From Streptococcus massiliensis DSM 18628 (GTDB lineage: Bacteria > Bacillota > Bacilli > Lactobacillales > Streptococcaceae), in the NCBI RefSeq assembly GCF_000380065.1, contig NZ_KB904367.1, positions 1 through 42,459 on the forward strand: a stretch of 42,459 nt of DNA, in the 5' to 3' direction. The notes beneath the pieces were generated by a model. It was not told the DNA's origin, made no database searches, and saw nothing but the letters and a program-made list of their open reading frames with translations. Shown one piece after another: positions 8,248-23,026 of this stretch; position 1 is the first letter of the stretch; each line of letters opens with the position of its first letter. The position numbers were made by a program, and so were the translations under genes.

Positions 8248-8925
8248 ATGCACAAGATTATGTTAGTGGAGGATGATCCAATCATCCGCCAAATGGTAAA
8301 GCAGAGCTTGGAACAGTGGGATTTTCAGGTTATTGATATAGAAGACTTTACTCAAGTTTTAAGCATTTTTGTTCAGGAAAATCCTCATCTGGTTTTGATG
8401 GATATTGGTTTGCCGATGTTTAATGGTTATCATTGGGCTCAGGAAATCCGTAAGGTTTCAACAGTGCCGATTATGTTTTTGTCTTCACGCGATCAGGCAA
8501 TGGATATTGTTATGGCTATCAATATGGGTGGAGACGATTATGTGACCAAACCCTTTGATATCAATGTTCTCTTGGCTAAGATTCAAGGGCTGCTCCGTCG
8601 TTCCTATGAGTTTGGTACAGACAATAATCTCCTAGAATATCAAGGCACTGTGCTTAACTTGAAAAATATGGATATTGTAGTCAATGGGCAAGTGGTTGAT
8701 CTGACAAAAAATGAATTTCAAATTTTACGAATATTGTTTGAGCGAAAAGGGGCTATTGTCACACGTGAAGACATTATGCAGGAGCTATGGAATAGTGACT
8801 TTTTCATCGATGACAATACTTTGTCGGTTAATGTCGCACGTTTGCGTAAGAAATTGGAGGAAGTGGGTCTGGTAAACTTTATTGAAACCAAAAAAGGAAT
8901 AGGATACGGTCTACGTCATGACTAG
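8248..8925 (+). CDS. BceR-like OmpR-family response regulator
   Basis: A 225-residue DNA-binding response regulator. The receiver domain (1-115) has the acidic pocket E8-D9-D10, phosphoacceptor D52 (LVLMDIGLP) and conserved K101 (YVTKPFD). The C-terminal winged helix (about 130-222) includes LTKNEFQILRILFE and the recognition region DDNTLSVNVARLRKKLEEVG. It overlaps the kinase gene by 8 nt. The neighbouring permease/ATPase genes and the matching TTACA-N4-TGTAA operators place it in the BceR group, which activates antimicrobial-peptide detoxification transporters. The likely targets are the operators at 9927 and 17275. Confidence 0.9.
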   Translation: MHKIMLVEDDPIIRQMVKQSLEQWDFQVIDIEDFTQVLSIFVQENPHLVLMDIGLPMFNGYHWAQEIRKVSTVPIMFLSSRDQAMDIVMAINMGGDDYVTKPFDINVLLAKIQGLLRRSYEFGTDNNLLEYQGTVLNLKNMDIVVNGQVVDLTKNEFQILRILFERKGAIVTREDIMQELWNSDFFIDDNTLSVNVARLRKKLEEVGLVNFIETKKGIGYGLRHD

Positions 8926-9901
8926 TAAGGAAAAACTTCATTTCATAAAAGGGTATATTTCTTCTCGGCGGTATTTTCTGCTCTTGCTTTTCTTGTTCTT
9001 TTTTGTGCTAGGGCTGTTGACATTTCTCTACACAAGTCAGGGACAGATGATTAATTATATTTCCTTGCTCTTGTTTTTTCTGGGCTTTCCACTTCTTAGT
9101 TTAGATGTTTTTCGCAATTACCAGCAGTTTAAGCATTTGCTCTGGGAAAGAGAAGATATAGTTATGCAGTCAGGCTCTGAGCAGCTGCTTTTGGAACGGC
9201 TTCAAGAAAGTCAGCAGAAATTGCAGAACCTAGATGAAGCAGAGAGGCAGAAGCGTTCAGAGGCAGAAGATTATTTTACTCTTTGGGCGCATCAGATCAA
9301 AACGCCGATTGCTGCTAGTCGTTTGTTAGTTGATAATCTCGCTGAGACGAATAGCCGTCAGGCCTTGCAGCAAGAGTTGTTTAAAATAGAAGCTTACGCA
9401 AATCTTGTCTTGCAATATTTACGATTGGAAAGTTTCCACGACGATTTGGTACTTAAAAAGGAAAATTTAGCAGATGTAGTCAAGGAAGCAGTGAAGAAAT
9501 ATTCGCTTTTCTTCATTCAAAAACATCTCAGCCTCAACTTGCATGATTTGGATTATGAATTTGTGACAGATCGCAAGTGGTTTCTTATTGTTTTGGAACA
9601 AATTTTGTCCAACAGTGTCAAATATACTAATCAAGGTGGCGTGGAGATCTATGTCAAGGATGACAGCCTTTATTTAGTCGATACAGGTCTAGGGATTCAA
9701 GAGAGCGATTTGCAGCGAGTTTTCGAGCGAGGTTTTTCTGGCTACAATGGGCGCTTGACGCAGCAATCTTCTGGTTTAGGACTTTACCTGACCAAGCAAA
9801 TCCTTGATAAACTGGACTATCCAATTATGCTTAAGTCCAAGGTTGGTCAAGGGACGACAGTTAAAATTGATCTCAAACGTCGGCAGTTGGTATTTGAGTA
9901 G
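8918..9901 (+). CDS. BceS-like intramembrane-sensing histidine kinase
   Basis: A 327-residue sensor kinase with two membrane helices (about 18-38 and 45-63) and almost no extracellular loop, the hallmark of intramembrane-sensing kinases. The H-box FTLWAHQIKTP carries H125; the N-box is QILSNSVKYT, the G1 box DTGLGI and the G2 box SSGLGLYL. In BceS-like kinases the signal comes from the partner ABC transporter rather than from direct ligand binding, so it probably senses flux through one or both BceB-type permeases encoded downstream. It overlaps the regulator gene (ATGA-type coupling). Confidence 0.9.
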   Translation: MTSKEKLHFIKGYISSRRYFLLLLFLFFFVLGLLTFLYTSQGQMINYISLLLFFLGFPLLSLDVFRNYQQFKHLLWEREDIVMQSGSEQLLLERLQESQQKLQNLDEAERQKRSEAEDYFTLWAHQIKTPIAASRLLVDNLAETNSRQALQQELFKIEAYANLVLQYLRLESFHDDLVLKKENLADVVKEAVKKYSLFFIQKHLSLNLHDLDYEFVTDRKWFLIVLEQILSNSVKYTNQGGVEIYVKDDSLYLVDTGLGIQESDLQRVFERGFSGYNGRLTQQSSGLGLYLTKQILDKLDYPIMLKSKVGQGTTVKIDLKRRQLVFE

Positions 9902-9926
9902 TTCAAGTTTTTAAAAATATTTTTCT

Positions 9927-9946
9927 TTCTTACAAAATTGTAAGAA
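9927..9946. promoter_or_regulatory. BceR-type operator 1 (before the small ORF/traX/ABC operon)
   Basis: Perfect inverted repeat TTCTTACA-AAAT-TGTAAGAA, containing TTACA-N4-TGTAA, the motif known for BceR-like regulators (TNACA-N4-TGTAA). Nineteen bp (9928-9946) are identical to 17275-17293. Confidence 0.75.
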
Positions 9947-9960
9947 TTATCCTTAAAAAT

Positions 9961-9996
9961 GAAAGGTTAGGTTATGGTACCGACCTTTCTTTTTTT
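9961..9996 (+). terminator. Hairpin after the kinase gene
   Basis: GAAAGGT (9961-9967) pairs with ACCTTTC (9983-9989), with an inner GGT/ACC pairing and seven T. It probably ends the two-component transcript, but it also lies between operator 1 and the -10 box and covers the -35 position. Confidence 0.7.
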
Positions 9997-9997
9997 A

Positions 9998-10003
9998 TAT
10001 ACT
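9998..10003 (+). promoter_or_regulatory. Proposed -10 box of the ABC operon
   Basis: TATACT lies 51 bp after operator 1, and no good -35 is present 17 bp upstream. The spacing matches site 2 (TATAAT, 50 bp after its operator) to within 1 bp. An alternative promoter is TTGTAA (10008-10013), 18 bp, TTATAT (10032-10037). Confidence 0.5.
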
Positions 10004-10065
10004 AGTCTTGTAAATAAGTTAAACATGCTCTTTATATGAGAGGAGTAGAAAGTGAGGATGAAACG

Positions 10066-10212
10066 ATGAAAAAGTTAGAAGAATTGTTCAAAAATCATGT
10101 GAGCCATAAACCGGAAGTGCTCAAAGAAGAATCCTTACGAGAAAAGATTGAAAAGCAGGAAACCTTAATCGAAATGAATCAATTTTGTATGGATTTGCGG
10201 ATGATGGGTTAA
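10066..10212 (+). CDS. Small 48-residue charged protein of unknown function
   Basis: A reading frame of 48 codons plus stop, starting at ATG with GAGG 8 nt upstream and ending 10 nt before traX. The product is hydrophilic and predicted helical, rich in Lys and Glu (KPEVLKEESLREKIEKQ), with a Met-rich C-terminus (FCMDLRMMG) and a single Cys. There is no signal or membrane segment. It is the first gene after operator 1, so it may be a small partner or regulator of the detoxification module. I recognise no family. Ribosome binding site, tight spacing and operon position support real coding. Confidence 0.65.
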   Translation: MKKLEELFKNHVSHKPEVLKEESLREKIEKQETLIEMNQFCMDLRMMG

Positions 10213-10222
10213 GGAGAAGCAG

Positions 10223-10954
10223 ATGAAAAAGTATAATGCTTATCAGTTAAAATTAGCTATGGCAGCCTTGATGGTGCTGGATCATATCTATATTATTCCA
10301 GGGCTTGTTTCTCCCAGCTGGGAAGGGATTTTTCATGCGCTAACTCGCTGTGTGGGAGTCTATTTTGCCTATATGGCGGTGGAGGGATTCATTCATACGC
10401 GTAACTTAAAAGCCTACCTACTCCGCTTATTTTCTTGGGGAATGTTTATGGCAGGAGGAAATGCGCTGCTAAACCTGCTTTATCAGTCGCGGCAGATTCA
10501 TCTTGAAAATAATATTTTTCTGACCTTAGCCATGGGTGTGCTGATGTTAACTTTCTTTTATAGATTTTCTTCCTTATCTAAAGGTTGGTATCTCGTAGCA
10601 GGAGTGCTGACTTTACTTGCAGGTAGTTTTCTCACCGAAGGTGGGATTGTTATTTTGCCTTTTATGCTGATTAGCTACGTCTGCAGAGAACGGAAGATTT
10701 TGCGTAATAGTCTATATCTTCTTTTGTCAGCATTTTTACTGATCATGTCCTATACTGCCTGTCCAAGTTGGCAGGAGACACTGGAGATGTTACTTTATAA
10801 TTCAGACTTTCTCTTTATCAGTGTGCTTCTCTTGCTAGCGCTTTATAATGGTGAGCGAGGACCAAAGACATCTTTTAGCAAATATTTCTTTTATGTCTTT
10901 TATCCGGCTCACCTCTGGTTGCTGGCAACGCTTGCCTTTTTTATGGCTGGCTAA
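10223..10954 (+). CDS. TraX family polytopic membrane protein
   Basis: A 243-residue protein with about eight predicted membrane helices, starting KYNAYQLKLAMAALMVLDHIY. This is the TraX fold; F-plasmid TraX acetylates pilin. Chromosomal TraX homologues in Firmicutes are common and not evidence of conjugation; some may be membrane acyltransferases. GGAG lies 7 nt before the ATG. It lies in the same direction as the 48-residue protein and the ABC genes downstream of a BceR-type operator, so it may modify an envelope component during antimicrobial-peptide stress (inference). Confidence 0.75.
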   Translation: MKKYNAYQLKLAMAALMVLDHIYIIPGLVSPSWEGIFHALTRCVGVYFAYMAVEGFIHTRNLKAYLLRLFSWGMFMAGGNALLNLLYQSRQIHLENNIFLTLAMGVLMLTFFYRFSSLSKGWYLVAGVLTLLAGSFLTEGGIVILPFMLISYVCRERKILRNSLYLLLSAFLLIMSYTACPSWQETLEMLLYNSDFLFISVLLLLALYNGERGPKTSFSKYFFYVFYPAHLWLLATLAFFMAG

Positions 10955-10995
10955 GTCAGATTTAAAATAGTAAAATGAAATATGGAGGTACGGAG

Positions 10996-12966
10996 ATGTT
11001 TAAACTTACCAGTAAACTTGCCCTGTCAAATCTAGTGAAAAATCGCAAACTTTACTATCCTTTCGCTCTTGCTACGATGATAGCGACTGCGATCCTTTAC
11101 AGCTTTATCTCTCTGGCTTATAGTCCAGATATGGAAAAGAGTTACGGAGGTGCTGCTTCAAGGATGACTTTGCAATTTGGGATTATTGTGATTCAAATTG
11201 CGGTTTTGATTCTTGTTGCCTATGCGAATAGCTTTGTCATGAAAAATCGTTCGCGCGAGTTGGGGCTCTATAGTATTCTTGGGATGGAAAAGTGGCACTT
11301 ACTCGTTATGACCTTTGTTGAGCTTTTGCTCTTCTTTGCGGGAACTGTTGGCTTGGGGCTTGGTGTTGGATTTATATTTGACAAACTTCTCTACGCTGTC
11401 TTACTCAAAGTTATGGGGATGCCTGTAGTCTTAGCTTCAACTTTCCAGTGGTTCAATATCTTTCTAACTTTAGTCAGCCTAGCTGTCGCTTTTGCCTTGA
11501 TTCTCTTGCTCAATAGTGCTAGGCTTCTGCGTTATAGCTCGCTTACTATGATTCGTGAGAAAAAAGCTGGGGAGAAGAAGGGGCGTTTGCTTCTCTTGCA
11601 GACCTTGATTGGGCTTGTTTTGCTAGGTATTGCCTATTATATGGCTTTGATGGTTAAGAGTCCTGTGGCGGCGATTATCCAGTTTTTTTGGGCAGTTATC
11701 TTGGTAATTGCAGCAACTTACATTCTTTTTAATGCAGGCTCCATCACTTTCTTGCAGTTCTTGAAAAAAAGTAAGAGTTATTATCGCAAACCCGAAAATA
11801 TGATTTCCGTCTCCAATCTAGTTGCACGTATGCGTAAAAACGCAGCGGGGCTTGCGACGATTTCTATCTTATCAACCATGCTGTTGGTTACCCTAGTGGG
11901 TTCTATCAACATCTATGTTGGCGGTAAGGACTATCTGGATAGTCTGTATCCTCACGCTTATAATTTTTCAGTCAGTACAGGAAATGAAAAAGAAGAGGAT
12001 TTTCTTCTAAAAACAGTCAAGGAGCTAGTTGCAGAGAATCAGATAGCTTCTCCTAGTTATCATACGTATACTTACTATACCGTAGGTGTCAAAAGGAAAA
12101 CCGCTAATCGGTTGATTTCAGTAGAAAATGGAAACAGGATTCCAGATATGGTTTTTACTGTTATTAGCTCTGCTGAATATGGAAAAATGACAGGCGAGAA
12201 ACTTAGTCTAGCAGATAATGAAACGATTGTCTATGCAAAGGACAACTCACTGCTGGCTGATAAGCCTTTACAAGTTAATGATAAGTCTCTTACAATCAAA
12301 AAGATTGTAAGAAAAGATTTTAGCCATGGAAACATTCCAAATGAAGGCGTCGCTGTTGGTAATAAGCAAATTTATGCAGTGGTGAATGATCCCAGTCAAA
12401 TCATGAAAATTGAATCGAAAACGTATTATGTCGGTGTTGATAGTTCGACAGAAGTGAAAGATATAAGTCATTTCGCTAGTCAGGCACTGGATAGGCTGAT
12501 GACTTTACGCGAACAAGAAACGGCTGGAAATTTTAGTTTTACTAGTCGTCAGTCTGTTGAAAAGGAATATCGTGGCGTTGTGGGGACTCTCCTTTTTATC
12601 GGTATTTTTCTGTCTGTGATCTTTCTGATCGGAGCGGTCTTGGTTATCTACTATAAGCAAATTTCAGAAGGATATGAGGATCGGGATAATTTTGTTATTC
12701 TGCAAAAAGTAGGATTGGATCAAAGTCAAACCAAGCGCACCATTCAAAAGCAAATTTTGATCGTTTTCTTCTTACCGCTGGTCTTTGCATTTGTACACTT
12801 AGCGGTGGCTTTTAAAATGATCAGTCTAATTGTGGCTATGCTTGGTGCAAGTAATGTGGGGTTGCTCATTCAAACAACGATTGGAATTTGTCTAATCTTT
12901 CTCATAGCTTATATTGTTGTCTTTCTACTGACGGCAAGAACTTATCGAAAGATTGTTTCTCATTAA
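10996..12966 (+). CDS. BceB-type ABC transporter permease, copy 1
   Basis: A 656-residue permease with FtsX-like domains: an N-terminal helix, a triplet of helices, a further cluster, a large extracellular domain (about 300-510) between helices 7 and 8, and three C-terminal helices. This ten-helix plan with one big outer domain defines BceB-type transporters, which free lipid-II-cycle targets from peptide antibiotics and signal to the paired kinase. I chose ATG 10996 (MFKLTSKLALSNL) because GGAGG lies 7 nt upstream; copy 2 starts with the same motif (MFRLTSKLAVSNL). The extracellular domain differs strongly from copy 2, while the membrane parts are similar. Confidence 0.88.
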   Translation: MFKLTSKLALSNLVKNRKLYYPFALATMIATAILYSFISLAYSPDMEKSYGGAASRMTLQFGIIVIQIAVLILVAYANSFVMKNRSRELGLYSILGMEKWHLLVMTFVELLLFFAGTVGLGLGVGFIFDKLLYAVLLKVMGMPVVLASTFQWFNIFLTLVSLAVAFALILLLNSARLLRYSSLTMIREKKAGEKKGRLLLLQTLIGLVLLGIAYYMALMVKSPVAAIIQFFWAVILVIAATYILFNAGSITFLQFLKKSKSYYRKPENMISVSNLVARMRKNAAGLATISILSTMLLVTLVGSINIYVGGKDYLDSLYPHAYNFSVSTGNEKEEDFLLKTVKELVAENQIASPSYHTYTYYTVGVKRKTANRLISVENGNRIPDMVFTVISSAEYGKMTGEKLSLADNETIVYAKDNSLLADKPLQVNDKSLTIKKIVRKDFSHGNIPNEGVAVGNKQIYAVVNDPSQIMKIESKTYYVGVDSSTEVKDISHFASQALDRLMTLREQETAGNFSFTSRQSVEKEYRGVVGTLLFIGIFLSVIFLIGAVLVIYYKQISEGYEDRDNFVILQKVGLDQSQTKRTIQKQILIVFFLPLVFAFVHLAVAFKMISLIVAMLGASNVGLLIQTTIGICLIFLIAYIVVFLLTARTYRKIVSH

Positions 12967-13008
12967 AATTTAAAAATTATACATAATAAAGAAAAAGAGG
13001 TACTTATA

Positions 13009-13767
13009 ATGACTGTTTTAGATGTTCAACATGTGAAAAAAATTTACAAAACTCGCTTCCAAGGAAACCAAGTAGAAGCGCTTCGTGATATTCACTTTAC
13101 AGTGGACAAGGGCGAATATGTCGCTATCATGGGGGAATCTGGTTCTGGGAAATCAACTCTTCTTAATATTCTCGCTATGCTGGATAAGCCGACAGAAGGG
13201 CGCGTTTTCCTCAACGGCACCGACACAGCGACCATCAAAAATAAGGACGCGTCGAGCTTCCGCCGTGAAAAGCTAGGTTTTGTCTTTCAAGATTTCAATT
13301 TATTGGATACTTTGTCTGTAAAAGATAACATTTTGCTACCATTGGTCTTATCTCGCCGTCCAATCACTGAGATGATGCGCAAATTGGTTGAGATTTGTAA
13401 TGAGCTAGGGATCAACAACCTACAAGAGAAATTTCCTTATGAGATTTCAGGTGGTCAAAAGCAGCGGGTGGCAGTGGCGCGTGCCATTATCACTGAACCA
13501 GAAATTCTCCTTGCTGATGAGCCGACAGGAGCACTGGATTCCAAATCTTCCGCGACCTTGCTTGATGTCTTTGAAGAACTTAATGACAAGGGGCAAACCA
13601 TTCTCATGGTGACCCACTCGACAGCAGCGGCTAGTCGTGCCAAGCGTGTGATTTTCATCAAAGATGGTATTCTCTACAATCAAATCTTCCGCGGGGATAA
13701 AACAGAGCGGCAAATGTTCCAAGAAATTTCAGATACCTTGACTGTAATGGCGAGTGAGGTGGGCTAA
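13009..13767 (+). CDS. BceA-type ABC transporter ATPase
   Basis: A 252-residue nucleotide-binding subunit. Walker A GESGSGKST is at 42-50, the Q-loop in FVFQDFNL, the signature ISGGQKQR, Walker B ILLADEPTGALDS, and the H-loop in MVTHS. It belongs to the MacB/LolD/BceA class. It is placed between two BceB-type permeases and ends 1 nt before the second. One ATPase for two permeases suggests that it serves both, either in one heteromeric complex or in two alternatives. An AGAGG ribosome binding site precedes ATG 13009. Confidence 0.93.
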   Translation: MTVLDVQHVKKIYKTRFQGNQVEALRDIHFTVDKGEYVAIMGESGSGKSTLLNILAMLDKPTEGRVFLNGTDTATIKNKDASSFRREKLGFVFQDFNLLDTLSVKDNILLPLVLSRRPITEMMRKLVEICNELGINNLQEKFPYEISGGQKQRVAVARAIITEPEILLADEPTGALDSKSSATLLDVFEELNDKGQTILMVTHSTAAASRAKRVIFIKDGILYNQIFRGDKTERQMFQEISDTLTVMASEVG

Positions 13768-13768
13768 A

Positions 13769-15757
13769 ATGTTTAGGCTTACCAGTAAACTCGCAGTTTC
13801 AAACCTTATCAAAAATCGCACTCTTTATTATCCTTTTGCGTTGGCTACCTGTGTTGCCGTTGCCATTACTTATATTTTTATCTCTTTAACCTTCAACCCT
13901 CACTTGAGTAAGATGGCAGGTAGCAGCACGATTGCTGTGGTACTTGCCCTAGGGATGGTCATTGTAACAATTGCTGCGACGATTATCGTTCTTTACGCCA
14001 ATAGCTTCGTCATGAAAAATCGGTCTAAAGAATTAGGTGTTTACGGCATGCTGGGGCTCAATAAGCGACATTTATTTTCCATGATTTTTATTGAGCTCGT
14101 TCTCTTTGGACTAGTGACGGTTGCTTTGGGTTTAGGGGCAGGAATTTTGTTTGACAACTTGATTTATGCCTTTTTACTAAAGCTAATCGGTGTAAAGGCT
14201 GTTTTGGTTTCAACCTTCCAAGTCCCAGTTGTAATTGCAGTAGTCTTTATTTATGGTGGGATATTTGCTTTATTGGTTTTTGTTAATGGCTGGCGCCTGC
14301 TGCGTTTTAATGCGCTGCAAATGACCAAAGAAAAGCAAAGCGGTGAGAAAAAAGGACGCTTTCTTGTGGGACAAACCATTCTGGGTATACTAGCGCTTGC
14401 GGCGGGCTATTATCTAGCGCTCAGCGTAACCAATCCCATGTCAGCTATCTTCATCTTCTTCTTGGCTGTGCTGTTAGTCATCCTAGCGACCTATCTGCTT
14501 TTTAATGCTGGCATCACCGTTTTTCTGCAAATGTTGCAAAAGAACAAGAACTATTATTACCAGCCCAAAAACATGATCTCGGTCTCCAATCTCATCTACC
14601 GCATGAAGAAAAATGCGGTCGGTCTTGCTACCATTTGTATCTTGTCCACCATGGTCTTGGTGACCTTGGCAGGCGGCAGTAATATCTATGCTGGCGATGA
14701 ATATTTCCAAAAAGCGATCAATCCTAGTGATTTTGCTCTAAATGGGAAAAATGTCACGACTGAACAAATGAACCAAGTTTTTAGTGAATTTGTAGCAGAA
14801 CAAGGCTTGAAGGTCAAAAAACAATATGCTGTTCAGTCTTATATTATGGGGGTTAAGGAGCAGACGGGCAACACCTTTGAGCTCTACAATATGGGACAAA
14901 ATCGAGTGATTCCTAAGTCAATCATTTTCATGATGTCAACGAAGGACTATGAAACCATGACAGGTCAAAAGTTGGATTTACAAGAAAATGAAGCAGCGAT
15001 TTATAGTAAAAATGTCAAGCTAGACACCCAGCAAAAAGTGCGCATCGCTAATCAAGATTTGACAGTCAAAAAGGAGTTTAATGAAAACTTTATCTTTGGC
15101 TACATCCCTGATGAATACAGCTTAATTACAGACAAAATTCTTTATATGGTGGTCAACCATCCTGACCAGCTCCTAGCGCTACAAAGCCAACAATTTAATG
15201 TTACTCCCTATCTCTATGGCGGGCTCAATATTGAGGCTTCTAACAAGGTGAAAGAAAAACTAAATCAGCCTTACCAGAAAAAACTGGAGCAGTTCAATCA
15301 AACCCTACCAGAAGGAACGGCCTTCTACGGTTCAGCGAGAGTAGTGGCGGTTAAGGAATTCTCAACTGTCTTCGGCGGACTCTTCTTCATTGGCATTTTC
15401 CTAGCCATTGTCTTTATGTTGGGAACAGTCTTGGTTATCTACTACAAGCAAGTTTCTGAAGGCTACGAGGACCGCGAGCGCTTCGTCATTCTGCAAAAAG
15501 TCGGGCTCGACCAAGAGCAGACCAATCAGACCATTCGCAGACAAGTGCTGACCGTTTTCTTCCTGCCCTTGATTTTCGCCTTTGTCCATTTGGCCTTTGC
15601 CTATCATATGCTCAGTTTGATTTTGAAAATCCTGGGCGTGCTAAATAGCGGCTTGATGCTCATGGTAACCCTGGGAGTCTGTGCGATCTTCCTCATCGTC
15701 TATATCGTCGTCTTTCTTATTACATCGCGCAGCTATCACAGAATTGTGAAAATGTGA
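13769..15757 (+). CDS. BceB-type ABC transporter permease, copy 2
   Basis: A 662-residue paralogue of the permease at 10996. The N-terminal motif (MFRLTSKLAVSNLIKNRTLYYPFALAT), the VMKNRSKELG segment and the C-terminal block (IYYKQVSEGYEDRERFVILQKVGLDQ) closely match copy 1; the outer domain (about 300-510) has diverged. The true start is ATG 13769, 1 nt after the ATPase stop, with GAGGTG upstream; a TTG further up would overlap the ATPase. A terminator hairpin follows at 15769. Which drug or peptide each outer domain recognises cannot be told from the sequence. Confidence 0.88.
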   Translation: MFRLTSKLAVSNLIKNRTLYYPFALATCVAVAITYIFISLTFNPHLSKMAGSSTIAVVLALGMVIVTIAATIIVLYANSFVMKNRSKELGVYGMLGLNKRHLFSMIFIELVLFGLVTVALGLGAGILFDNLIYAFLLKLIGVKAVLVSTFQVPVVIAVVFIYGGIFALLVFVNGWRLLRFNALQMTKEKQSGEKKGRFLVGQTILGILALAAGYYLALSVTNPMSAIFIFFLAVLLVILATYLLFNAGITVFLQMLQKNKNYYYQPKNMISVSNLIYRMKKNAVGLATICILSTMVLVTLAGGSNIYAGDEYFQKAINPSDFALNGKNVTTEQMNQVFSEFVAEQGLKVKKQYAVQSYIMGVKEQTGNTFELYNMGQNRVIPKSIIFMMSTKDYETMTGQKLDLQENEAAIYSKNVKLDTQQKVRIANQDLTVKKEFNENFIFGYIPDEYSLITDKILYMVVNHPDQLLALQSQQFNVTPYLYGGLNIEASNKVKEKLNQPYQKKLEQFNQTLPEGTAFYGSARVVAVKEFSTVFGGLFFIGIFLAIVFMLGTVLVIYYKQVSEGYEDRERFVILQKVGLDQEQTNQTIRRQVLTVFFLPLIFAFVHLAFAYHMLSLILKILGVLNSGLMLMVTLGVCAIFLIVYIVVFLITSRSYHRIVKM

Positions 15758-15768
15758 CAAATGCTAGT

Positions 15769-15800
15769 AAAAAGTTCTGAATATAGTTTCAGAACTTTTT
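15769..15800 (+). terminator. Terminator of the ABC operon
   Basis: AAAAAGTTCTGAA pairs with TTCAGAACTTTTT around a short loop, ending in a T run. Confidence 0.85.
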
Positions 15801-15836
15801 ATTTTATAAATATTTATACCGTTTTACGAAAAAATA

Positions 15837-15845
15837 TGATACAAT
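15837..15845 (+). promoter_or_regulatory. Possible extended -10 of the amino-acid permease gene
   Basis: TGA-TACAAT, about 33 nt before the ATG; no convincing -35 box. Confidence 0.4.
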
Positions 15846-15878
15846 AACTAGGTTATTTATATTTCTGGGAGTTAATAA

Positions 15879-17270
15879 ATGAATATTTTTAGAAAAAAAG
15901 AAAGCGGACATGAGCGGACAGGCATGCGGCGTCATCTGCGGCTTATGGACTTGATTTTGCTGGGGATTGGCTCTATGGTTGGAACAGGAATCTTCACTAT
16001 TACAGGAATTGGGGCGGCAACTTATGCGGGTCCAGCTCTGACGATTTCCATTGTAATTGCGGCTATCTGCGTGACCATTTCGGCTCTTTTTTATGCCGAA
16101 TTTGCTTCGCGCGTGCCAACCAACGGTGGTGCTTATGGCTATCTTTACGTCATCTTGGGCGAATTTCCTGCTTGGATAGCGGGCTGGCTGACCATTATGG
16201 AATTTTTGACTGCTGTTTCCAGTGTGGCTTCGGGCTGGGGCTCCTATTTAAAAGGGCTTTTGGAAAATTGGGGCATTCGCCTTCCGACCGCACTCAACGG
16301 CACTTTCAACCCAGCAGCAGGGACCTATATTGACTTGCTGCCGGTCTTGGTTTTGGTTTTTGTCACAGGCCTTGTTCTGCTCAATTCTAAGGCGGCTTTG
16401 CGCTTCAACTCAGCCTTGGTCGTCCTCAAATTCTCAGCCTTGGCACTCTTTATCGTCGCAGGTCTCTTTTTCATCAAACCTGAAAATTGGTCCAACTTCG
16501 CGCCTTTTGGCTTTGGACAAATCTACGGCGGCAAAACCGGTATTATGGCTGGCGCTTCCATTATGTTCTTTGCCTTTCTTGGTTTTGAGTCTATTTCTCT
16601 GGCGGTCGATGAGGTCAAGGAACCGCAAAGGAATGTTCCGCGCGGGATTGCCCTGTCGCTCAGCATTGTGACGGTGCTTTATGTGGTGGTGACCTTGATT
16701 TTGACGGGTATGGTGCATTATACCAAGCTAAATGTACCGGACGCAGTTGCCTTTGCTCTGCGTAGCGTCGGTCTGTCTTGGGCGGGGAATTACGTGTCTG
16801 TGGTCGCGATTTTGACCTTGATTACGGTTTGTATTGCCATGACCTACGCCCTGTCGCGCATGGTCTACAGTATCAGTCGCGACGGACTCTTGCCGCGACA
16901 ATTTAGCAACTTGACCCAAACGAGCAAGGTTCCTAAAAATGCCACGATTTTGGTAGGAATTTTTGCAGCTATCTGCGCGGGCGTCTTTCCCTTAGCAACG
17001 ATTGCTTCCTTCCTCAATATCTGTACGCTGGCTTACCTGATTTTGTTGGCTTACGCCATTATTAAATTGCGCAAGGAACAGGGAGCACCAAAAGAGGGCG
17101 AGTTCAAGACGCCGCTGATGCCCATTCTACCAATCTTGTCCATTGTGATTTGCCTGTCCTTTATGACCCAGTATGAGCTAGTCACTTGGCTTGCTTTCGG
17201 GCTTGCCCTAATCGTCGGTATCATCATCTACGCCCTTTACGGCTACCGTCATTCCGGAGTTGGGGAGTAG
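15879..17270 (+). CDS. APC-superfamily amino-acid permease (CAT/YfnA type)
   Basis: A 463-residue transporter with about 12 membrane helices. The first helix carries the APC signature GIGSMVGTGIFTITG, followed by the FYAEFASRVPTNGGAYGY motif at the end of helix 3. The charged N-terminus (MNIFRKKESGHERTGMRR) is typical of CAT-like permeases such as YfnA and lactococcal BcaP, which import branched-chain or cationic amino acids with protons. The exact substrate cannot be assigned. It appears monocistronic, with a terminator at 17309. Codon use is slightly GC-richer than that of the flanking genes. Confidence 0.85.
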   Translation: MNIFRKKESGHERTGMRRHLRLMDLILLGIGSMVGTGIFTITGIGAATYAGPALTISIVIAAICVTISALFYAEFASRVPTNGGAYGYLYVILGEFPAWIAGWLTIMEFLTAVSSVASGWGSYLKGLLENWGIRLPTALNGTFNPAAGTYIDLLPVLVLVFVTGLVLLNSKAALRFNSALVVLKFSALALFIVAGLFFIKPENWSNFAPFGFGQIYGGKTGIMAGASIMFFAFLGFESISLAVDEVKEPQRNVPRGIALSLSIVTVLYVVVTLILTGMVHYTKLNVPDAVAFALRSVGLSWAGNYVSVVAILTLITVCIAMTYALSRMVYSISRDGLLPRQFSNLTQTSKVPKNATILVGIFAAICAGVFPLATIASFLNICTLAYLILLAYAIIKLRKEQGAPKEGEFKTPLMPILPILSIVICLSFMTQYELVTWLAFGLALIVGIIIYALYGYRHSGVGE

Positions 17271-17274
17271 CTAA

Positions 17275-17293
17275 TCTTACAAAATTGTAAGAA
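17275..17293. promoter_or_regulatory. BceR-type operator 2 (before the 17374 gene)
   Basis: TCTTACA-AAAT-TGTAAGA followed by A, identical over 19 bp to 9928-9946. A half-site TGTAAGA recurs 20 bp downstream (17306-17312). TATAAT (17344-17349) lies 50 bp after the operator, with no -35 box. Confidence 0.7.
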
Positions 17294-17308
17294 ATAATTA
17301 AAAAATGT

Positions 17309-17341
17309 AAGATAGAGCTAAGGAAATTAGTTCTATCTTTT
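17309..17341 (+). terminator. Hairpin after the amino-acid permease gene
   Basis: AAGATAGAGCTA pairs with TAGTTCTATCTT (one G-U), then a T run. As at operator 1, this hairpin lies between the operator and the -10 box. Confidence 0.7.
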
Positions 17342-17343
17342 GA

Positions 17344-17349
17344 TATAAT
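17344..17349 (+). promoter_or_regulatory. -10 box of the 17374 gene
   Basis: Consensus TATAAT, with no -35 hexamer 16-18 bp upstream, as expected for an activator-dependent promoter. Confidence 0.6.
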
Positions 17350-17373
17350 CGAATAAAAAATGGAGGTTTGAAA

Positions 17374-17853
17374 ATGAAGAAAGTGTTTTTAGGGTATCTG
17401 GGAGCGCTGGTTTTATTGTTGTTAATGGCTGGGGCAGCATTGTTTTATTTCGGTCCAAATTATAACATTTACCTGCTTCCTCCAAGTCCGCAGCAATATG
17501 TTAAATCTGCACTTGGCAAAATGAGTTTTGGACTGTATGCAGGAAAAGAGTGGGAAGAAGAAAGTAAAAAAGCATTAGAGGAAGTAAAAATCGCAAAAAA
17601 CTATGAAGAAACTTATCCTGTACTAAAAAGAATGGCGGAGTTAGCAGGAGGCAAACATTCCTATTTTTATAGTCCAAAAGATAACAGACTCATTCGTCGT
17701 TTGTTACCCAAAGGAGGCAAAGATGCAACTCTACAACAAGTCGCATTCATTGAAAATTGGATGAACAACTATCCAAAGAAAATACTAGATCACATATCTC
17801 TTAGAGAGTTTTTAGACGCTGGCCAACTTGGACTTAAAGTTTGGATTTTTTAA
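17374..17853 (+). CDS. Membrane-anchored protein resembling an S41-peptidase N-terminal region
   Basis: A 159-residue protein with one N-terminal membrane helix (about 4-24) and an outer domain. The segment after the helix (LLPPSPQQYVKSALGKMSFGLY, then AKNYEETYPVLKRMAELAGGKHS) recalls the N-terminal region of S41 (C-terminal-processing) peptidases of lactic acid bacteria. The PDZ and Ser/Lys catalytic parts are absent, and no continuation is seen before the next promoter at 17874. It is therefore either a truncated peptidase or a stand-alone accessory protein. I use ATG 17374; the TTG at 17368 is too close to GGAGG (17362-17366). Operator 2 suggests control by the BceR-like regulator. Confidence 0.6.
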   Translation: MKKVFLGYLGALVLLLLMAGAALFYFGPNYNIYLLPPSPQQYVKSALGKMSFGLYAGKEWEEESKKALEEVKIAKNYEETYPVLKRMAELAGGKHSYFYSPKDNRLIRRLLPKGGKDATLQQVAFIENWMNNYPKKILDHISLREFLDAGQLGLKVWIF

Positions 17854-17873
17854 AATTAATTTTTAAAAATATA

Positions 17874-18009: not shown

Positions 18010-18837
18010 ATGAGAGTGATGCAGTCGTTGAATCAGAATGCTTTATTAGTAGAAGAAGGTAAAAAGCAGTTTGTAGTTTTAGGAAAAGGAATTGGTTTTG
18101 GGAAGAAAAAGGGAGAAATTATTTCGGAAGTTCAAGGATTAAGGTACTATGAGATTACCGAAAATAACCCTAAAAATATCTTAGAGTCCATATCAGAAAA
18201 GAATTTAGAGATTGCAGAAGAAATTGCAGAAGTTACAGCTAAAAAATTTAAAACAGTTATTAGTGCAGAATCAATTGTTTCTCTTGCAAGCCATCTCGAA
18301 TTTATTCATGACCGTCACCAAGAAGAGGCGACTTTCCAAGAGCCATTTGCCTATGAATTGAAATATCTTTACGCAGAAGAATATAACTTAGCGAAGTGGA
18401 TTATTGATTACATAAACAAAAACTACCATTTATCTCTTCCGTTAGCTGAGGTATCTTTCTTTACTTTACATTTTGTGAATATGCAGCTTGATAAGAATTC
18501 CTCGACGAATCTGTTAAAATTAAGCACGATTTTAACAGATTTGATAAATGTAGTTGAAGAAAAGTGGGGGAAGAAAATCGATAAAGAAAGTATTGATTTT
18601 TCAAGATTTATTGTCCATCTACGTTATTTTATCATGAGAAATTTTTCTGCAGTAAGAAAAGAAGAGCAACAAGCTACAATAGACGATTTTTACTCACTTG
18701 CGGAAGTTATGTATGTTGATGAGATGGAAACACTAAGTTGCATTAATAAGGAATTATCAAATAAACATGATATTTGTTTAAGTAAACCGGAAAATTTTTA
18801 TTTGTTACTTCATTTAATTCGTTTAAAGAATTGTTAG
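18010..18837 (+). CDS. BglG/LicT-family transcription antiterminator
   Basis: A 275-residue RNA-binding antiterminator with an N-terminal CAT RNA-binding domain (1-56: LNQNALLVEEGKKQFVVLGKGIGFGKKKG), PRD1 (about 70-170, His in SHLEFIHDRH and LHFVNMQ) and PRD2 (about 175-275). The PTS phosphorylates PRD histidines, so the protein opens the leader terminator only when sugar is being imported. It is the first gene of the operon whose leader carries the RAT/terminator at 17920-17984, so it controls its own operon. AGGAG lies 9 nt before the ATG. Confidence 0.92.
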   Translation: MRVMQSLNQNALLVEEGKKQFVVLGKGIGFGKKKGEIISEVQGLRYYEITENNPKNILESISEKNLEIAEEIAEVTAKKFKTVISAESIVSLASHLEFIHDRHQEEATFQEPFAYELKYLYAEEYNLAKWIIDYINKNYHLSLPLAEVSFFTLHFVNMQLDKNSSTNLLKLSTILTDLINVVEEKWGKKIDKESIDFSRFIVHLRYFIMRNFSAVRKEEQQATIDDFYSLAEVMYVDEMETLSCINKELSNKHDICLSKPENFYLLLHLIRLKNC

Positions 18838-18847
18838 GGAGATTATT

Positions 18848-19315
18848 ATGGTTGATTTGAGTAGTATGTTTAACAAAGATTTGGTTTTTACAGATATTAA
18901 AGCAGATGACAAATTTGATTTTTTTAGAATCGCATCTGAAAAATTAGTTTCTCTAGATTATATTGAAAATAGTTTTGAGCACGCGCTTATAGAAAGAGAA
19001 AAAGAATATCCTACAGGTCTAAATTTAGGTGACTTTGGGATTGCAATACCTCATACAGATTCGATTCACGTCAAAAAACAATTTATCAGTGTATTTAAGA
19101 TGACGGATGCTATTAAGTTTACTCAGATGGGAACTGACGATGAGGAGGTAGAGGCTAAATATATCTTTGTGTTAGGGATAAAAGATCCAAAATCACAGGT
19201 AGCTTATTTAGCTTCTCTTATCTCATTGTTAACCAACCAACAATTTTTAGATGCCTTATCTCAAGCTCATACTAAAGGAGGAATAAAAGAAATTTTAAGT
19301 CGGACGTTCGATTAA
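18848..19315 (+). CDS. PTS EIIA component (fructose/mannitol/galactitol-type domain)
   Basis: A 155-residue EIIA of the PTS_EIIA_2 fold. The phosphorylated histidine is H69 in GIAIPHTDS. It passes phosphate from HPr to the EIIB encoded next. It has all parts of a free-standing galactitol-type EIIA. The gene starts 11 nt after the antiterminator stop with a GGGAG site. Substrate unknown. Confidence 0.88.
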   Translation: MVDLSSMFNKDLVFTDIKADDKFDFFRIASEKLVSLDYIENSFEHALIEREKEYPTGLNLGDFGIAIPHTDSIHVKKQFISVFKMTDAIKFTQMGTDDEEVEAKYIFVLGIKDPKSQVAYLASLISLLTNQQFLDALSQAHTKGGIKEILSRTFD

Positions 19316-19370
19316 AGCTAGTTTTAATCGGATTGCAAATAAGTTTCCATGGTTTTTCAAGGAGGTCTTT

Positions 19371-19655
19371 ATGAAAAATATTTTATTAGCTTGTGGCTCA
19401 GGTATTGCAACTTCAACTGTGGTACACAGTAAAATTGCCACTATCTTAGACGATAAAGGCTATAGGGGAAAATATAAGATTACTCAATGCAAGGTATCTG
19501 AGGCCCCTGCGAAGTCAGCTAATTTCGACTTTTTGATTGCAACTACTATGCCACCTAAAGGATTAGAGTGTGAGTTTGTGTCAGGTGTCTGTTTCTTAAC
19601 AGGAGTTAACACGCAAGCTTCCATTGATCGTATTGTAGAGCTTATGGAAAAATAG
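19371..19655 (+). CDS. PTS EIIB component, galactitol type
   Basis: A 94-residue EIIB of the lactose/galactitol superfamily. The phosphocysteine is C8 in ILLACGSGIATSTVV. It takes phosphate from EIIA and gives it to the sugar bound in EIIC. An AAGGAGG site precedes the ATG. The 55-nt gap before this gene holds no clear promoter. Confidence 0.88.
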   Translation: MKNILLACGSGIATSTVVHSKIATILDDKGYRGKYKITQCKVSEAPAKSANFDFLIATTMPPKGLECEFVSGVCFLTGVNTQASIDRIVELMEK

Positions 19656-19665
19656 GAGAAGGATT

Positions 19666-21030
19666 ATGAAAGGTTTACTTGATGTCTTCCAGTTTATTCA
19701 AGGATTGGGAGTAAGTGTGGTGATGCCTATTGTAATTTTTATATTAGGCTGTGCTTTTAAAACAGGGATTGGGAAAAGTCTTCGTGCAGGTCTTACTGTA
19801 GGGGTTGGTTTTATTGGTTTAAACCTAGTTATTAACTCACTACTTGGAGTGAGTCTGTCTCCTGCTGTACAAGAAATGGTAAAACGTTTTGGCTTATCTC
19901 TATCAACGATTGATGTAGGATGGCCAGCGTCCGCTGCGATTGCGATGGGATCAACAGTAGGGCTTATTATCATACCGTTAGGTATTGTCATTAATATGGT
20001 CATGCTCCTTACTAATACAACACAGACTGTAGATGTGGATATCTGGGACTACTGGCACTTTGCATTTACAGGAGCCTTGGTTGCGATTCTAACTAATAAT
20101 GTTGTTATTGGTGTGATTGCCGCAACCATTAACATGGTTATTGTAATGGTGTTAGGTGATATTACTGCACCGGAAGTTGAAAAATCCTTGTCCTTACCTG
20201 GTGTTTCACTCCCTCACGGTTTTACAACTGCATATGCACCTATTGCCTTGGTTATCAATTCTATTATCGATAAGATTCCTGGAATCAATAAGATTGATAT
20301 CAACATGGATACTGTTCAACGTCGTTTCGGTGTGTTTGGAGAGCCAATCTTAGTAGGTACTCTTCTTGGTTTCGTTATAGGAGTTTTAGCTGGTTATGAT
20401 TTTAAAGGAATTCTAACTTTGGGAGTTTCTTTGGGAGCTGTTCTGGTATTAATTCCTAAGATGGCGGCCCTTCTGATGGAAGGGTTGATTCCAATCAGTG
20501 ATGCTGCGAGTGAATTTATTCAAGTGAAATTCAAGAATCGCGGTAAGATCTACATTGGACTTGATTCTGCAGTAGGTGTTGGTCACCCTGTAACTCTTGC
20601 GATCTCATTTGTGCTTGTACCATTGTTGATTTTCTTAGCTGTAGTATTACCAGGAAATACTGTACTTCCATTTGCGGATCTTGCGGTTATTCCATGGATG
20701 TTTGTACTTATTACCCCAATTGTAAAAGAAAATGGATTTAGAGGTTTGATTGTTGGTTTGGTTGTCCTTGTGTGTGGTCTTTATATTGCAACTGACTTGG
20801 CACCGTTAATTACAACAGCAGCTAAAAACGTCAATTTTGAAATGCCTGCAGGTGCGAATATGATTTCTTCTATTTGTGACGGTGCAAACCCTCTAACTTG
20901 GATTCTTGTTCGTCTAAGCGGGCTTGGTTATGTAGGAACTGCTGTAGGTAGTGCTTTTGCGGTTGTACTTGCACTTTGGAACAGAAATCGTATTAAGAAA
21001 GAAGCTGCTTTGATGCATGCTGGTGAATAA
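19666..21030 (+). CDS. PTS EIIC component, galactitol (GatC) family
   Basis: A 454-residue membrane permease with about 10-12 helices, of normal length for the GatC/SgcC family. Conserved features include the GVGFIGLNLVIN segment and the TTAYAPIALVIN segment. It imports and phosphorylates a sugar or polyol. Family membership does not fix the substrate: relatives carry galactitol, D-arabitol or other pentitols and ketoses. Absence of a polyol-phosphate dehydrogenase in the operon argues for a substrate that enters as a ketose phosphate, or for a dehydrogenase elsewhere. Confidence 0.88.
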   Translation: MKGLLDVFQFIQGLGVSVVMPIVIFILGCAFKTGIGKSLRAGLTVGVGFIGLNLVINSLLGVSLSPAVQEMVKRFGLSLSTIDVGWPASAAIAMGSTVGLIIIPLGIVINMVMLLTNTTQTVDVDIWDYWHFAFTGALVAILTNNVVIGVIAATINMVIVMVLGDITAPEVEKSLSLPGVSLPHGFTTAYAPIALVINSIIDKIPGINKIDINMDTVQRRFGVFGEPILVGTLLGFVIGVLAGYDFKGILTLGVSLGAVLVLIPKMAALLMEGLIPISDAASEFIQVKFKNRGKIYIGLDSAVGVGHPVTLAISFVLVPLLIFLAVVLPGNTVLPFADLAVIPWMFVLITPIVKENGFRGLIVGLVVLVCGLYIATDLAPLITTAAKNVNFEMPAGANMISSICDGANPLTWILVRLSGLGYVGTAVGSAFAVVLALWNRNRIKKEAALMHAGE

Positions 21031-21049
21031 TAGAAAGCGGGGGAACAAA

Positions 21050-21538
21050 ATGGTTTATGTTCATAATAAGTTTAGCTACTTTGTCAGTGTGGTTTTAACA
21101 GGAATCTTCACTGTCTTAATTGTGGCTTGGTCATTCTTTATGGTTAGCCAAAACGTTCTCCCACAGTTATTCTTGTTTATTGCTTTTATAGCGGGGTATA
21201 ACGTTTGGAACACCTTTGTGTCTCAAGTCAATATTAAAGAAATTAAACTAGATGGTAATAGACTTGAGATTAAAACCTTGTCTAAAACTCATGAAGTTAA
21301 AGTAGATGAGTGTGAGAGTTTTAAAATTCGAGAGTTCCCATCAGCTGGGAAAATGTATATCAGAATAAAGGGGACAAAGTCACGACGTTTTTGGATTGAT
21401 ACAAAATATTTCAATGATTCTAAGACATTATTTAGAGAACTTTTGAATATTGAATTTGAGAAACACCCGAATAGCTTAAAAGCACGCGCAAGAAAAGTAA
21501 ATACTGAGTACAACAAGATTACAAAAAAGAAAGTGTGA
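21050..21538 (+). CDS. Two-TM protein with C-terminal PH-like domain, function unknown
   Basis: A 162-residue protein with two membrane helices (about 9-31 and 37-54) forming a hairpin and a cytoplasmic domain of about 105 residues. The soluble part alternates short beta strands (IKEIKLDGNRLEIKTL, THEVKVDECESFKIREF, MYIRIKGTKSRRFWI) and ends in a helix, a pattern like bacterial PH (YcxB-like) domains; this is an inference. I start at ATG 21050 after the purine-rich GCGGGGG; an upstream ATG at 21017 lies within EIIC. It is in the middle of the operon, with 4 nt to the aldolase gene, so it is probably needed for the same pathway. Confidence 0.7.
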   Translation: MVYVHNKFSYFVSVVLTGIFTVLIVAWSFFMVSQNVLPQLFLFIAFIAGYNVWNTFVSQVNIKEIKLDGNRLEIKTLSKTHEVKVDECESFKIREFPSAGKMYIRIKGTKSRRFWIDTKYFNDSKTLFRELLNIEFEKHPNSLKARARKVNTEYNKITKKKV

Positions 21539-21542
21539 TGAC

Positions 21543-22184
21543 ATGTACGAGGATTTAAAAGCGAAAATCATTGATTATGGAAAGAAATTAGATCGCTATG
21601 GGTTGATTGCCCTATCTGGTGGGAATATATCATGTAGATTAGGAAATGATTTGTTTTTGGTAACACCAAGTGGAATGGTCTATGAAGAACTTGTTCCAAG
21701 TGATATCTGTCTGGTAAATAAAGATGGACAAGTAGTTGAAGGTCAAAGAAAACCAAGTGTAGATACAGAAGCACTTCTCTATATTTATAATCATTTATCT
21801 GAAGTAAACGCAGTAATTCATACACACCAACCTTATGCGACAGCACTTGGTTTAATATCGAATCGTATTGATTGTGATTTAACAACACTAGCAAATACTG
21901 CAAAAGGTCATGTAAATGTAGCACCGTATGCATCTGCGGCTTCAATTGATATGGGAATTTCGGCTGTAGATCATCTTGATGGAAAACTAGCAGTTGTTCT
22001 AAAAAACCATGGTGTTCTAACCGTTGGAAAAGACTTGAAAGAAGCATTTTACGCAGCGGTTTATTTGGAAGAAGCATCAAAAACAATTGCTGTCGCAAGA
22101 TCTCTAAATACAGATATTGCAAAGTTATCTGAAGAACAGATTCAAAAGGCAGTTGAAGTATTTACGCATTATGGCCAGAAGTAG
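21543..22184 (+). CDS. Class II aldolase (L-fuculose-phosphate aldolase-like)
   Basis: A 213-residue zinc aldolase of the FucA/AraD/adducin family. Zinc ligands can be placed by family pattern at H93 and H95 (VIHTHQPYA) and H156 (LKNHGVLTVG), with the catalytic Glu at E76 (VDTEALL). The phosphate-binding GGNIS (26-30) and TPSG (41-44) motifs are present. FucA-type enzymes cleave a ketose 1-phosphate to dihydroxyacetone phosphate and an aldehyde; AraD-type members are epimerases, so cleavage is an inference. The neighbouring isomerase of the TIM type fits dihydroxyacetone phosphate as product. Confidence 0.85.
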   Translation: MYEDLKAKIIDYGKKLDRYGLIALSGGNISCRLGNDLFLVTPSGMVYEELVPSDICLVNKDGQVVEGQRKPSVDTEALLYIYNHLSEVNAVIHTHQPYATALGLISNRIDCDLTTLANTAKGHVNVAPYASAASIDMGISAVDHLDGKLAVVLKNHGVLTVGKDLKEAFYAAVYLEEASKTIAVARSLNTDIAKLSEEQIQKAVEVFTHYGQK

Positions 22185-22195
22185 GAGAAGGGGAC

Positions 22196-23026
22196 ATGTT
22201 AGTTACATCAAAAGAATTATTACAGTATGCAAAAAAACATCATTTTGCAGTTCCTGCCACAAACTTTGTTAATCTGGAGTCTGCACGCGCTTATGTGAAG
22301 ACAGCGGAAAAGCTAGGTCTTCCTTTAATTTTAGCTTTCGCTCAAGCTCATATGGACATGATTAGTCTTGAAGAAGCTGCTTTAATTGGGAAATACTATG
22401 CTGAAAACTCAAGTACATCGGTGATTCTTCACTTAGATCATGGACAGGATTTCGATACGATTGAAAAAGCGATTCAACTAGGATTTAATTCTGTCATGAT
22501 TGACGCATCGACTATGCCTTTTGAAGAGAATATTAGCTTAACAAAAAGAGTTGTTGAAATGGCTCATTCTTATGGGGTAGATGTTGAATCTGAAATTGGT
22601 CATGTGGGTTCTGGTACAAATTATGAAAATCATGACTTGAGTGATTCTATCTATACTGAGGTGGAAGATGCGGCTCGATTCGTTAAAGAAACAAATACTG
22701 ATACTTTAGCAGTCTCAATTGGAACAGCGCATGGATTCTACCAAGGAACTCCAGTCATTAGTTTTGATCGTCTTCATGAGATTAGTAAAGAGGTAGATGT
22801 TCCTCTAGTACTTCATGGTGGTTCTTCCTCAGGAGATAACAATCTTCATCGTTGTGCAACGGAAGGAATTTCTAAGATCAATATCTTTACGGACTTTATG
22901 GTGGCTGCTGTAAATCAAGATAAGAAGGTAGAGTTAACTGCCTTTTCAAAAGAAGCAGAAAAAAATATGTCGGAAACTCTGGAACACTACTTTAATGTGT
23001 TTGCGACAAAAGAGTATAAGAGGTAA
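22196..23026 (+). CDS. Class II ketose-bisphosphate aldolase (GatY/KbaY/FbaA-like)
   Basis: A 276-residue zinc-dependent TIM-barrel aldolase. Landmarks: D81-H82 in HLDHGQD, the EIGHVGSG region (133-140), H179 in SIGTAHG, and H207 in VLHGGSS (zinc ligands and phosphate site). It is clearly related to tagatose- and fructose-1,6-bisphosphate aldolases. Ketose bisphosphates would have to be made by a kinase, and none is encoded in the operon. It is the second aldolase in the cluster, which suggests either two substrates or a two-step route. Confidence 0.85.
   Translation: MLVTSKELLQYAKKHHFAVPATNFVNLESARAYVKTAEKLGLPLILAFAQAHMDMISLEEAALIGKYYAENSSTSVILHLDHGQDFDTIEKAIQLGFNSVMIDASTMPFEENISLTKRVVEMAHSYGVDVESEIGHVGSGTNYENHDLSDSIYTEVEDAARFVKETNTDTLAVSIGTAHGFYQGTPVISFDRLHEISKEVDVPLVLHGGSSSGDNNLHRCATEGISKINIFTDFMVAAVNQDKKVELTAFSKEAEKNMSETLEHYFNVFATKEYKR

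Follow-up and report, generated by a model that had tools for sequence, protein, structure and literature searches.

In Streptococcus agalactiae the nisin-resistance peptidase gene nsr, its ABC transporter and the two-component pair NsrRK lie together in one cluster, as they also do in locus L053 of our comparison. BceR-type control of such genes has been described in several streptococci. The S. agalactiae BceRS regulon comprises BceP (an S41 protease, NSR), BceCDE, BceO and BceAB (PMC11502775). The S. mutans regulator MbrC/BceR was shown by gel shift to bind a promoter carrying TTACAANNTTGTAA, with the motif being required (PMC4048456), and pneumococcal RR01 binds a fragment of the bceAB promoter with the signature TNACA-N4-TGTAA, which that paper quotes as the rule (PMC9020739). 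In S. suis, a three-gene BcrA-like transporter, sstFEG, is under the control of BceSR (PMC6819616). Here we analyze a window of 42,459 nucleotides from S. massiliensis DSM 18628 (the whole stretch NZ_KB904367.1, positions 1 to 42,459; contig C4 of a 1.86 Mb assembly), in which a first-pass annotation had reported two identical BceR-type operators, one ahead of a transporter cluster and the other ahead of a gene at 17374. The best explanation overall, and in our judgment a very probable one, is that the two sites are BceR-type binding sites in a single kind of activator-dependent promoter, present here twice, that the response regulator encoded at 8248 is their most likely binder and that the 17374 gene is a decayed gene for a nisin-resistance (NSR) type peptidase. 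Given that BceR control of an NSR protease (S. agalactiae) and of a BcrA-like pump (S. suis), as well as the motif (S. mutans, S. pneumoniae), have been published, the regulon of the window is a further case of something known, with a decayed member gene.

As in the S. agalactiae BceRS regulon (PMC11502775), BceR-type control in the window would extend to a gene of the NSR-family S41 proteases and to Bce-type transporters; the window peptidase gene, however, stands as a separate transcription unit downstream of a BcaP-like permease gene and is truncated. It comes from the same peptidase family as SaNSR of S. agalactiae (PMC4698656, PMC4773095, PDB 4y68) but retains only the histidine of the catalytic dyad and lacks the catalytic core. 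The S. mutans BceR/MbrC regulon is similar in its motif and in having several scattered targets, but the targets themselves differ (SMU_302, 862, 1006, 1856 and murMN), and the available part of that paper contains no mention of the downstream TGWAAG/ATGG element described below (PMC4048456). S. pneumoniae TCS01-BceAB shares the response regulator family and the motif (PMC9020739, PMC11034029). In one genome of our set, G179, the bceAB-like genes are located apart from the regulator and kinase pair as in the pneumococcus; its bceAB promoter fits the layout found here, its TraX promoter lacks the GG box, and it had no NSR match among the matches listed.

The inverted repeat TCTTACAAAATTGTAAGAA occurs on the plus strand at 9928..9946 (operator 1) and again at 17275..17293 (operator 2), exact in both places with 0 mismatches. 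A search for the 19-mer allowing up to 3 mismatches returned 4 matches in the window, two sites giving four matches because each palindrome also matches the opposite strand; 100 shuffles gave a mean of 0.03, with none reaching 4. Both sites satisfy the BceR-family rule TNACA-N4-TGTAA with an AT-rich centre. A -10 box, TATACT (9998..10003), begins 51 bp beyond operator 1, and TATAAT (17344..17349) begins 50 bp beyond operator 2. A promoter scan detected no sigma-70 -35/-10 pair on the plus strand in either 9890-10080 or 17250-17400, the second interval yielding one weak minus-strand match. The identity of the two sites, their fit to the family pattern and the nearly equal distance to a -10 without a -35, all of them proposed in the first-pass annotation, were therefore confirmed.

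Promoter alignment and pattern searches showed that the similarity continues downstream of the repeat on the plus strand. At site 1 the element TGAAAGGTTAGGTTATGG (9960..9977) consists of a third half-site, TGAAAG (9960-9965), and a TTATGG box (9972-9977), followed by 20 bp to the -10; at site 2 the corresponding element TGTAAGATAGAGCTAAGG (17306..17323) has TGTAAG (17306-17311) and CTAAGG (17318-17323), again with 20 bp to the -10. When this downstream half was searched without the repeat, using a pattern drawn up after inspecting the two sites, the window matched in these two places only, while 300 first-order simulations had a mean of 0.003 matches and none with 2. Hairpins are also present between operator and -10 (9962-9988 and 17309-17339), and may also terminate, within the promoter, transcripts that arrive from the preceding gene.

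In the longer promoter that contains each operator, the inverted repeat is followed at two helical turns by TGWAAG and then by an ATGG/AAGG box, which is separated from the -10 by 20 bp; a -35 is lacking. This layout was compared across 33 promoters (4 from the S. massiliensis genome and 29 from other genomes) hand-picked from mapped loci, a set from which mapped sites lacking the layout (e.g., L124, L125, L052, L054) were excluded. TGWAAG was present with 6/6 bases in all 33, and the strict order TGWAAG-9-A/T-GG-20-TANNNT, a pattern composed after viewing the set, was present in 32 (the exception is L122:3256). When boxes were picked by score, 28/33 showed the 20-bp spacing, other overlapping boxes having been chosen in the remaining five. 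In an alignment of the 26 distinct promoters from other genomes, the repeat core, TG-AAG and the ATGG/AAGG box were nearly invariant. Across the genus, the 18-mer with up to 1 mismatch was recovered from at least 154 of 197 genomes (our own included), compared to 1 hit overall for a reversed-pattern control, and a model trained on 26 promoters, none of them from the S. massiliensis genome (R1), gave matches at E<=0.01 in at least 172 of the 197.

Applied to the S. massiliensis genome, R1 recovered operator 1 (57.2 bits), a site on contig C57 (C57:10515, minus strand, 55.1 bits), operator 2 (52.1 bits) and a site on contig C23 (C23:19591, minus strand, 37.3 bits), all at E <= 4.8e-9 and separated by a gap of 25 bits from the next-best place at 12.0 bits. 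From their positions, the four promoters are predicted to serve the Bce-type transporter cluster, the 17374 gene, a LanFEG-like transporter on another contig and the antisense strand of the 3' end of gor. The proposal of a small BceR-type regulon thus finds support, but the two promoters first proposed were too few.

The 17374 gene (17374..17853, plus strand) had been described as encoding an orphan membrane protein, a description that protein and DNA homology did not uphold: the 159-residue product is a chimera in which a truncated NSR-type peptidase is joined in frame to the end of an IS30 element. Residues 1-101 match the S. agalactiae nisin-resistance protein (PDB 4y68, E 9e-9, the sole match at E<=0.1), and residues 1-104 match the starts of longer proteins elsewhere (open frames mostly 317-339 codons), the 14 best being 54-61% identical. 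This NSR/BceP-type part (17374..17676) has the N-terminal anchor, the helical bundle and the GGxHS histidine (GGKHSYF in the 4y68 alignment). The catalytic dyad of SaNSR is His98-Ser236 (PMC4698656). No Pfam match to the Peptidase_S41 core with its catalytic TASS serine was obtained for the product, and a tblastn search of the window with an intact relative matched only 17443-17682; the intact S. anginosus relative (L012 = L041) matches Peptidase_S41 at 6.2e-32 and PDB 4y68 at 2.7e-65. Without the Peptidase_S41 core, the 17374 product is classed as a peptidase remnant and not as a member of the family.

Residues 102-159 correspond to the C-terminus of an IS30 transposase (NF033563, 4.3e-5, 23.4 bits, below the cut-off of 80) and match many IS30 copies. 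At the DNA level the fragment of the IS30-family 3' end (17681..17868, plus strand) extends from 17681 to about 17842-17868, with 87% identity to the best copy over 17681-17842 and 77.9-87.0% identity to the 10 loci compared. A dismissal of the IS30 match on the whole open reading frame (ORF) as noise was rejected, as the match proved real once both parts were searched separately. Judged by homology, the 17374 gene is a decayed NSR/BceP S41 peptidase gene in which the promoter, the start and the first third were kept and an IS30 end replaces the catalytic core; the peptidase activity of its product would have been lost.

The association between operator and NSR gene is conserved in relatives. 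Among 19 other NSR loci (L012-L029, L031), a strong TTACA-N4-TGTAA repeat was found upstream in 17, with a weaker one in L029 and none in L028. Scanning related genomes for the operator ahead of 17374 homologues, as suggested in the first-pass annotation, recovered R1 matches of at least 42 bits just upstream of the NSR N-terminal match in 17 of 24 other genomes, among the matches listed; 7 of these 17 are R1 training rows, many are S. sanguinis-like, and the G172 match does not extend as far as the -10. The order permease-operator-NSR was observed in L112, L114, L117 and L126, and the gap between permease and operator is about 360 bases in L127 and L042 and about 1.1 kb in L045. Because this order is kept in several relatives, the amino-acid permease gene lying between the cluster and operator 2 does not weaken the link. 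NSR frames are interrupted behind intact operators also in S. sanguinis 2908 (L024) and S. sanguinis KO16 (L031), and the operator seems to outlive the NSR gene.

Directly upstream of operator 1, all on the plus strand, are genes for an OmpR-family, BceR-type response regulator (8248..8925; Pfam Response_reg and Trans_reg_C; best PDB matches 5dcm/5dcl, which we take to be NsrR) and a short BceS-type histidine kinase (8918..9901; best PDB match Sensor protein BceS, 8g3a, E 3.4e-27). As the first-pass annotation had stated, operator 1 heads a small ORF, TraX and ABC transporter genes. Promoter 1 is followed on the same strand by a 48-aa ORF (10066..10212; no family above cut-off), a TraX-family membrane protein (10223..10954; Pfam TraX, 5.5e-16), a first BceB-type permease (10975..12966; PsdB 9ugg, 3.7e-37, and BceB 7tcg, 1.9e-33), a BceA-type ATPase (13009..13767; Pfam ABC_tran; NCBIfam TIGR03608, 257.8 bits with a cut-off of 254.85) and a second BceB-type permease (13754..15757; PsdB, 1.7e-40, and BceB, 1.7e-35). 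For both permeases PsdB and BceB were the only PDB matches at E<=0.001, and both fit the BceB type (FtsX repeats, about 650 aa). TraX homologues were also found downstream of such promoters in other mapped loci. A near-palindrome, TCTTACAATCAAAAAGATTGTAAGAA, is located at 12288-12313 within the coding sequence of the first permease; it was dropped as a candidate BceR operator, its spacer being too long for the BceR rule.

We propose that a BceB-type transporter meeting a lipid-II-binding peptide would cause the short kinase to phosphorylate the 8248 response regulator, and that the phosphorylated regulator would bind the inverted repeat as one dimer. A second dimer may occupy the TGWAAG...ATGG element two helical turns downstream, where it would replace the missing -35 and recruit RNA polymerase to the -10. 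The 8248 product is the presumed binder on the grounds of adjacency and of co-conservation: regulators with 77-81% identity to it adjoin the same promoters in six further loci (L112, L114, L115, L117, L126, L129). Several points weigh against this reading as a whole. BceR-like regulators of more than one kind can share such motifs. Many R1 training promoters are orthologous to the S. massiliensis sites, so that the scores of these sites measure conservation and not independent discovery, and the C23 site (L009/L003) reached only 37 bits (model positions 1-57) on a segment 99.65% like S. anginosus. R1 matches were weak (20-21 bits) in G178, G175 and G091 of the 24 listed NSR genomes, with no upstream hit in G159, G058, G160 and G012, and the joint between NSR and IS30 sequence is ambiguous by a few bases (17671-17682).

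The alternative that survives best is that another response regulator binds these BceR-type operators by cross-regulation. A further regulator (L010:4203-4898, minus strand) and a kinase are encoded near the MacAB-like operon of the same genome, which may have yet other regulators, and in the pneumococcus TCS01 and the transporter on which it acts are encoded far apart (PMC9020739). However, this other regulator is only 35% identical to that of the window, compared to the conservation of the 8248 regulator beside the same promoters, and we regard such cross-regulation as unlikely. Far less probable is a reading of the sites as terminators or attenuators rather than operators, in which the hairpins upstream of the -10 would carry the function. 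The hairpin at site 1 is followed by a T run, and one at the C57 site was flagged as terminator-like; yet a terminator scan found none at either window site, hairpins were not obvious by eye in all promoters (e.g., L116, L112:10373), whereas TGWAAG and a GG box at 20 bp from the -10 were kept in 32 of the 33. Termination as the main function of the sites was rejected on this lack of conservation.

Equally hard to credit is that the NSR N-terminus has given rise to a small membrane protein with a function of its own, or to a decoy against peptides. The 17374 ORF has an intact promoter, a ribosome-binding site and an open frame, with membrane anchor and helical-bundle region kept, but its last 58 codons derive from the end of the IS30 transposase and its 3' flank, the catalytic serine domain is gone, and the broken NSR frames of the two S. 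sanguinis strains point to repeated loss. Finally, although a short consensus by itself is easily matched in an AT-rich genome, an origin of the sites as chance palindromes can be set aside as refuted by the shuffles, by the single hit of the reversed control in 197 genomes and by the 25-bit gap of the held-out model.

The two promoters outside the window extend the regulon in different directions. The C23 site is the BceR-type promoter of a LanFEG-like transporter encoded by three genes (L009:7107-9592, equivalent to G000:C23:17106-19591, minus strand), recognized by R1 and family search, with proteins of 302, 248 and 242 aa. The best family of its ATPase was TIGR03740 (galliderm_ABC) at 240.7 bits, under the cut-off of 309.75, and the transporter is for this reason termed LanFEG-like only. 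It resembles S. suis sstFEG under BceSR as a three-gene BcrA-like transporter under BceR control, but sstFEG adjoins bceABRS (PMC6819616), whereas the S. massiliensis transporter is on another contig, in a segment shared with S. anginosus. This segment (C23:17077-19968, 2,892 bp) is 99.65% identical to S. anginosus J4206 and ends inside tpx; no match to J4206 was found beyond either side of it within the 19.5 kb compared, whereas the gor proteins of S. massiliensis and J4206 share 78% identity. A recent transfer carrying the operator along with its cargo would be the simplest reading, with assembly contamination as a possible alternative.

At the 3' end of gor, in antisense orientation, the C57 site forms a BceR-type promoter (L010:10439-10515 in G000:C57, minus strand, found by R1), with gor at L010:9083-10432 and macA at L010:7670-8818. 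The site runs from the gor end back into gor, and at most 10 bp separate the end of its -10 from the stop codon of gor. A role in serving a 39-aa ORF on the opposite strand (L005:1726-1845) was rejected; this ORF has promoter-like boxes of its own, and the conserved layout offers no -10 in its direction, for which reasons the site is read in the minus direction. Among the matches listed, R1 detected the same antisense promoter just past gor in 31 of the 36 genomes nearest to the S. massiliensis gor, a sample that consists of close relatives by construction, includes one training row (G168) and leaves 152 further gor genomes outside the count. Of the 31, 28 came from one R1 scan and G132, G135 and G090 from another. 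It was not found by R1 among the matches listed in G038, G170, G094 and G113, and G054 had only a 19-bit match without the repeat at gor. The promoter is also present in G041 (a training row) and G053, and R1 and locus mapping show it to be absent from G179. Over seven gor loci, mean identity was 67% in the promoter, compared to 39% in the 78 bp before it and 33% in the 32 bp after it.

In 17/17 mapped loci, the next genes on the antisense strand form a MacA/MacB-like operon (PDB 5xu0, 2.7e-80; 5xu1, 3.6e-123). This operon is divergent from gor, and the geometry that an excludon would need, with one long transcript antisense to a gene running on into the operon divergent from it, is present in all 11 mapped antisense loci, where the path from the site to macA measures 1.67-1.99 kb (macA starts estimated in four). 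No terminator was seen past the start in 10/11 of these loci by a scan that is insensitive, given that it detected the gor-side terminator in only 4/11. The operon also has a promoter-like site of its own, TTGACA-17-TATTAT. BceR-like repeats were observed within the gor-macA gap of four other genomes (L144:1844, L145:5080, L146:1857, L147:1920); these gap sites, in G124, G157, G195 and G059, have no third half-site and no R1 hit and are suggestive only.

The operon is like the S. pneumoniae MacAB-like pump Spr0693-0695 (PMC5768738; PDB 5xu0, 5xu1), and it is divergent from gor and faced by the antisense promoter, whereas no site was found near the MacAB-like operon of G179. Deletion of a pump of this family in the pneumococcus lowers the minimum inhibitory concentration of LL-37 from 32 to 8 ug/ml (PMC5768738). 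A specific effect of pneumococcal RR01 on the antisense small RNA Spd_sr47 has been reported, without a motif being found for this RNA (PMC11034029), and in group B Streptococcus mutation of bceR increases the sensitivity to oxidative stress (PMC6351488), which by itself speaks neither for nor against a link to gor. A tentative idea, which we consider possible but less likely than not, is that oral and related streptococci have an excludon under BceR control. Peptide stress would fire the promoter at the end of gor and yield a transcript antisense to this glutathione reductase gene that runs on for about 1.6 kb into the divergent MacAB-like operon, and a single activator would in this way lower gor and at the same time raise a peptide-efflux pump. 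We found no description of the full promoter grammar or the gor-antisense site, and no BceR link to gor or to an excludon, in the open-licence papers and listings searched; the available parts of PMC5768738 and of two reviews that treat BceR and MacAB apart (PMC7609970, PMC10295115) contain no link between BceR and MacAB.

Between the transporter cluster and operator 2 lies the gene for the BcaP-like amino-acid permease (15879..17270, plus strand; NCBIfam NF053761, 481 bits, below the cut-off of 690), which is kept as a neighbour in relatives. Downstream of the IS30 remnant, the interval 18010-23026 of the window includes genes for a PRD antiterminator with a CAT RNA-binding domain (18010-18837), a phosphotransferase system (PTS) EIIC-GAT permease (19666-21030) and a class II aldolase (22196-23026).

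With these results an anonymous membrane protein becomes a recognisable relic of lantibiotic defence, and the promoter grammar is precise enough to list the BceR-type regulon from sequence alone in most of the streptococcal genomes searched. The pattern suggests that the peptidase, the LanFEG-like pump and the Bce-type pump have been lost and gained separately and yet remain under a common operator. As a new lead, the conserved gor-antisense promoter may tie peptide stress to redox metabolism as well as to another efflux pump.

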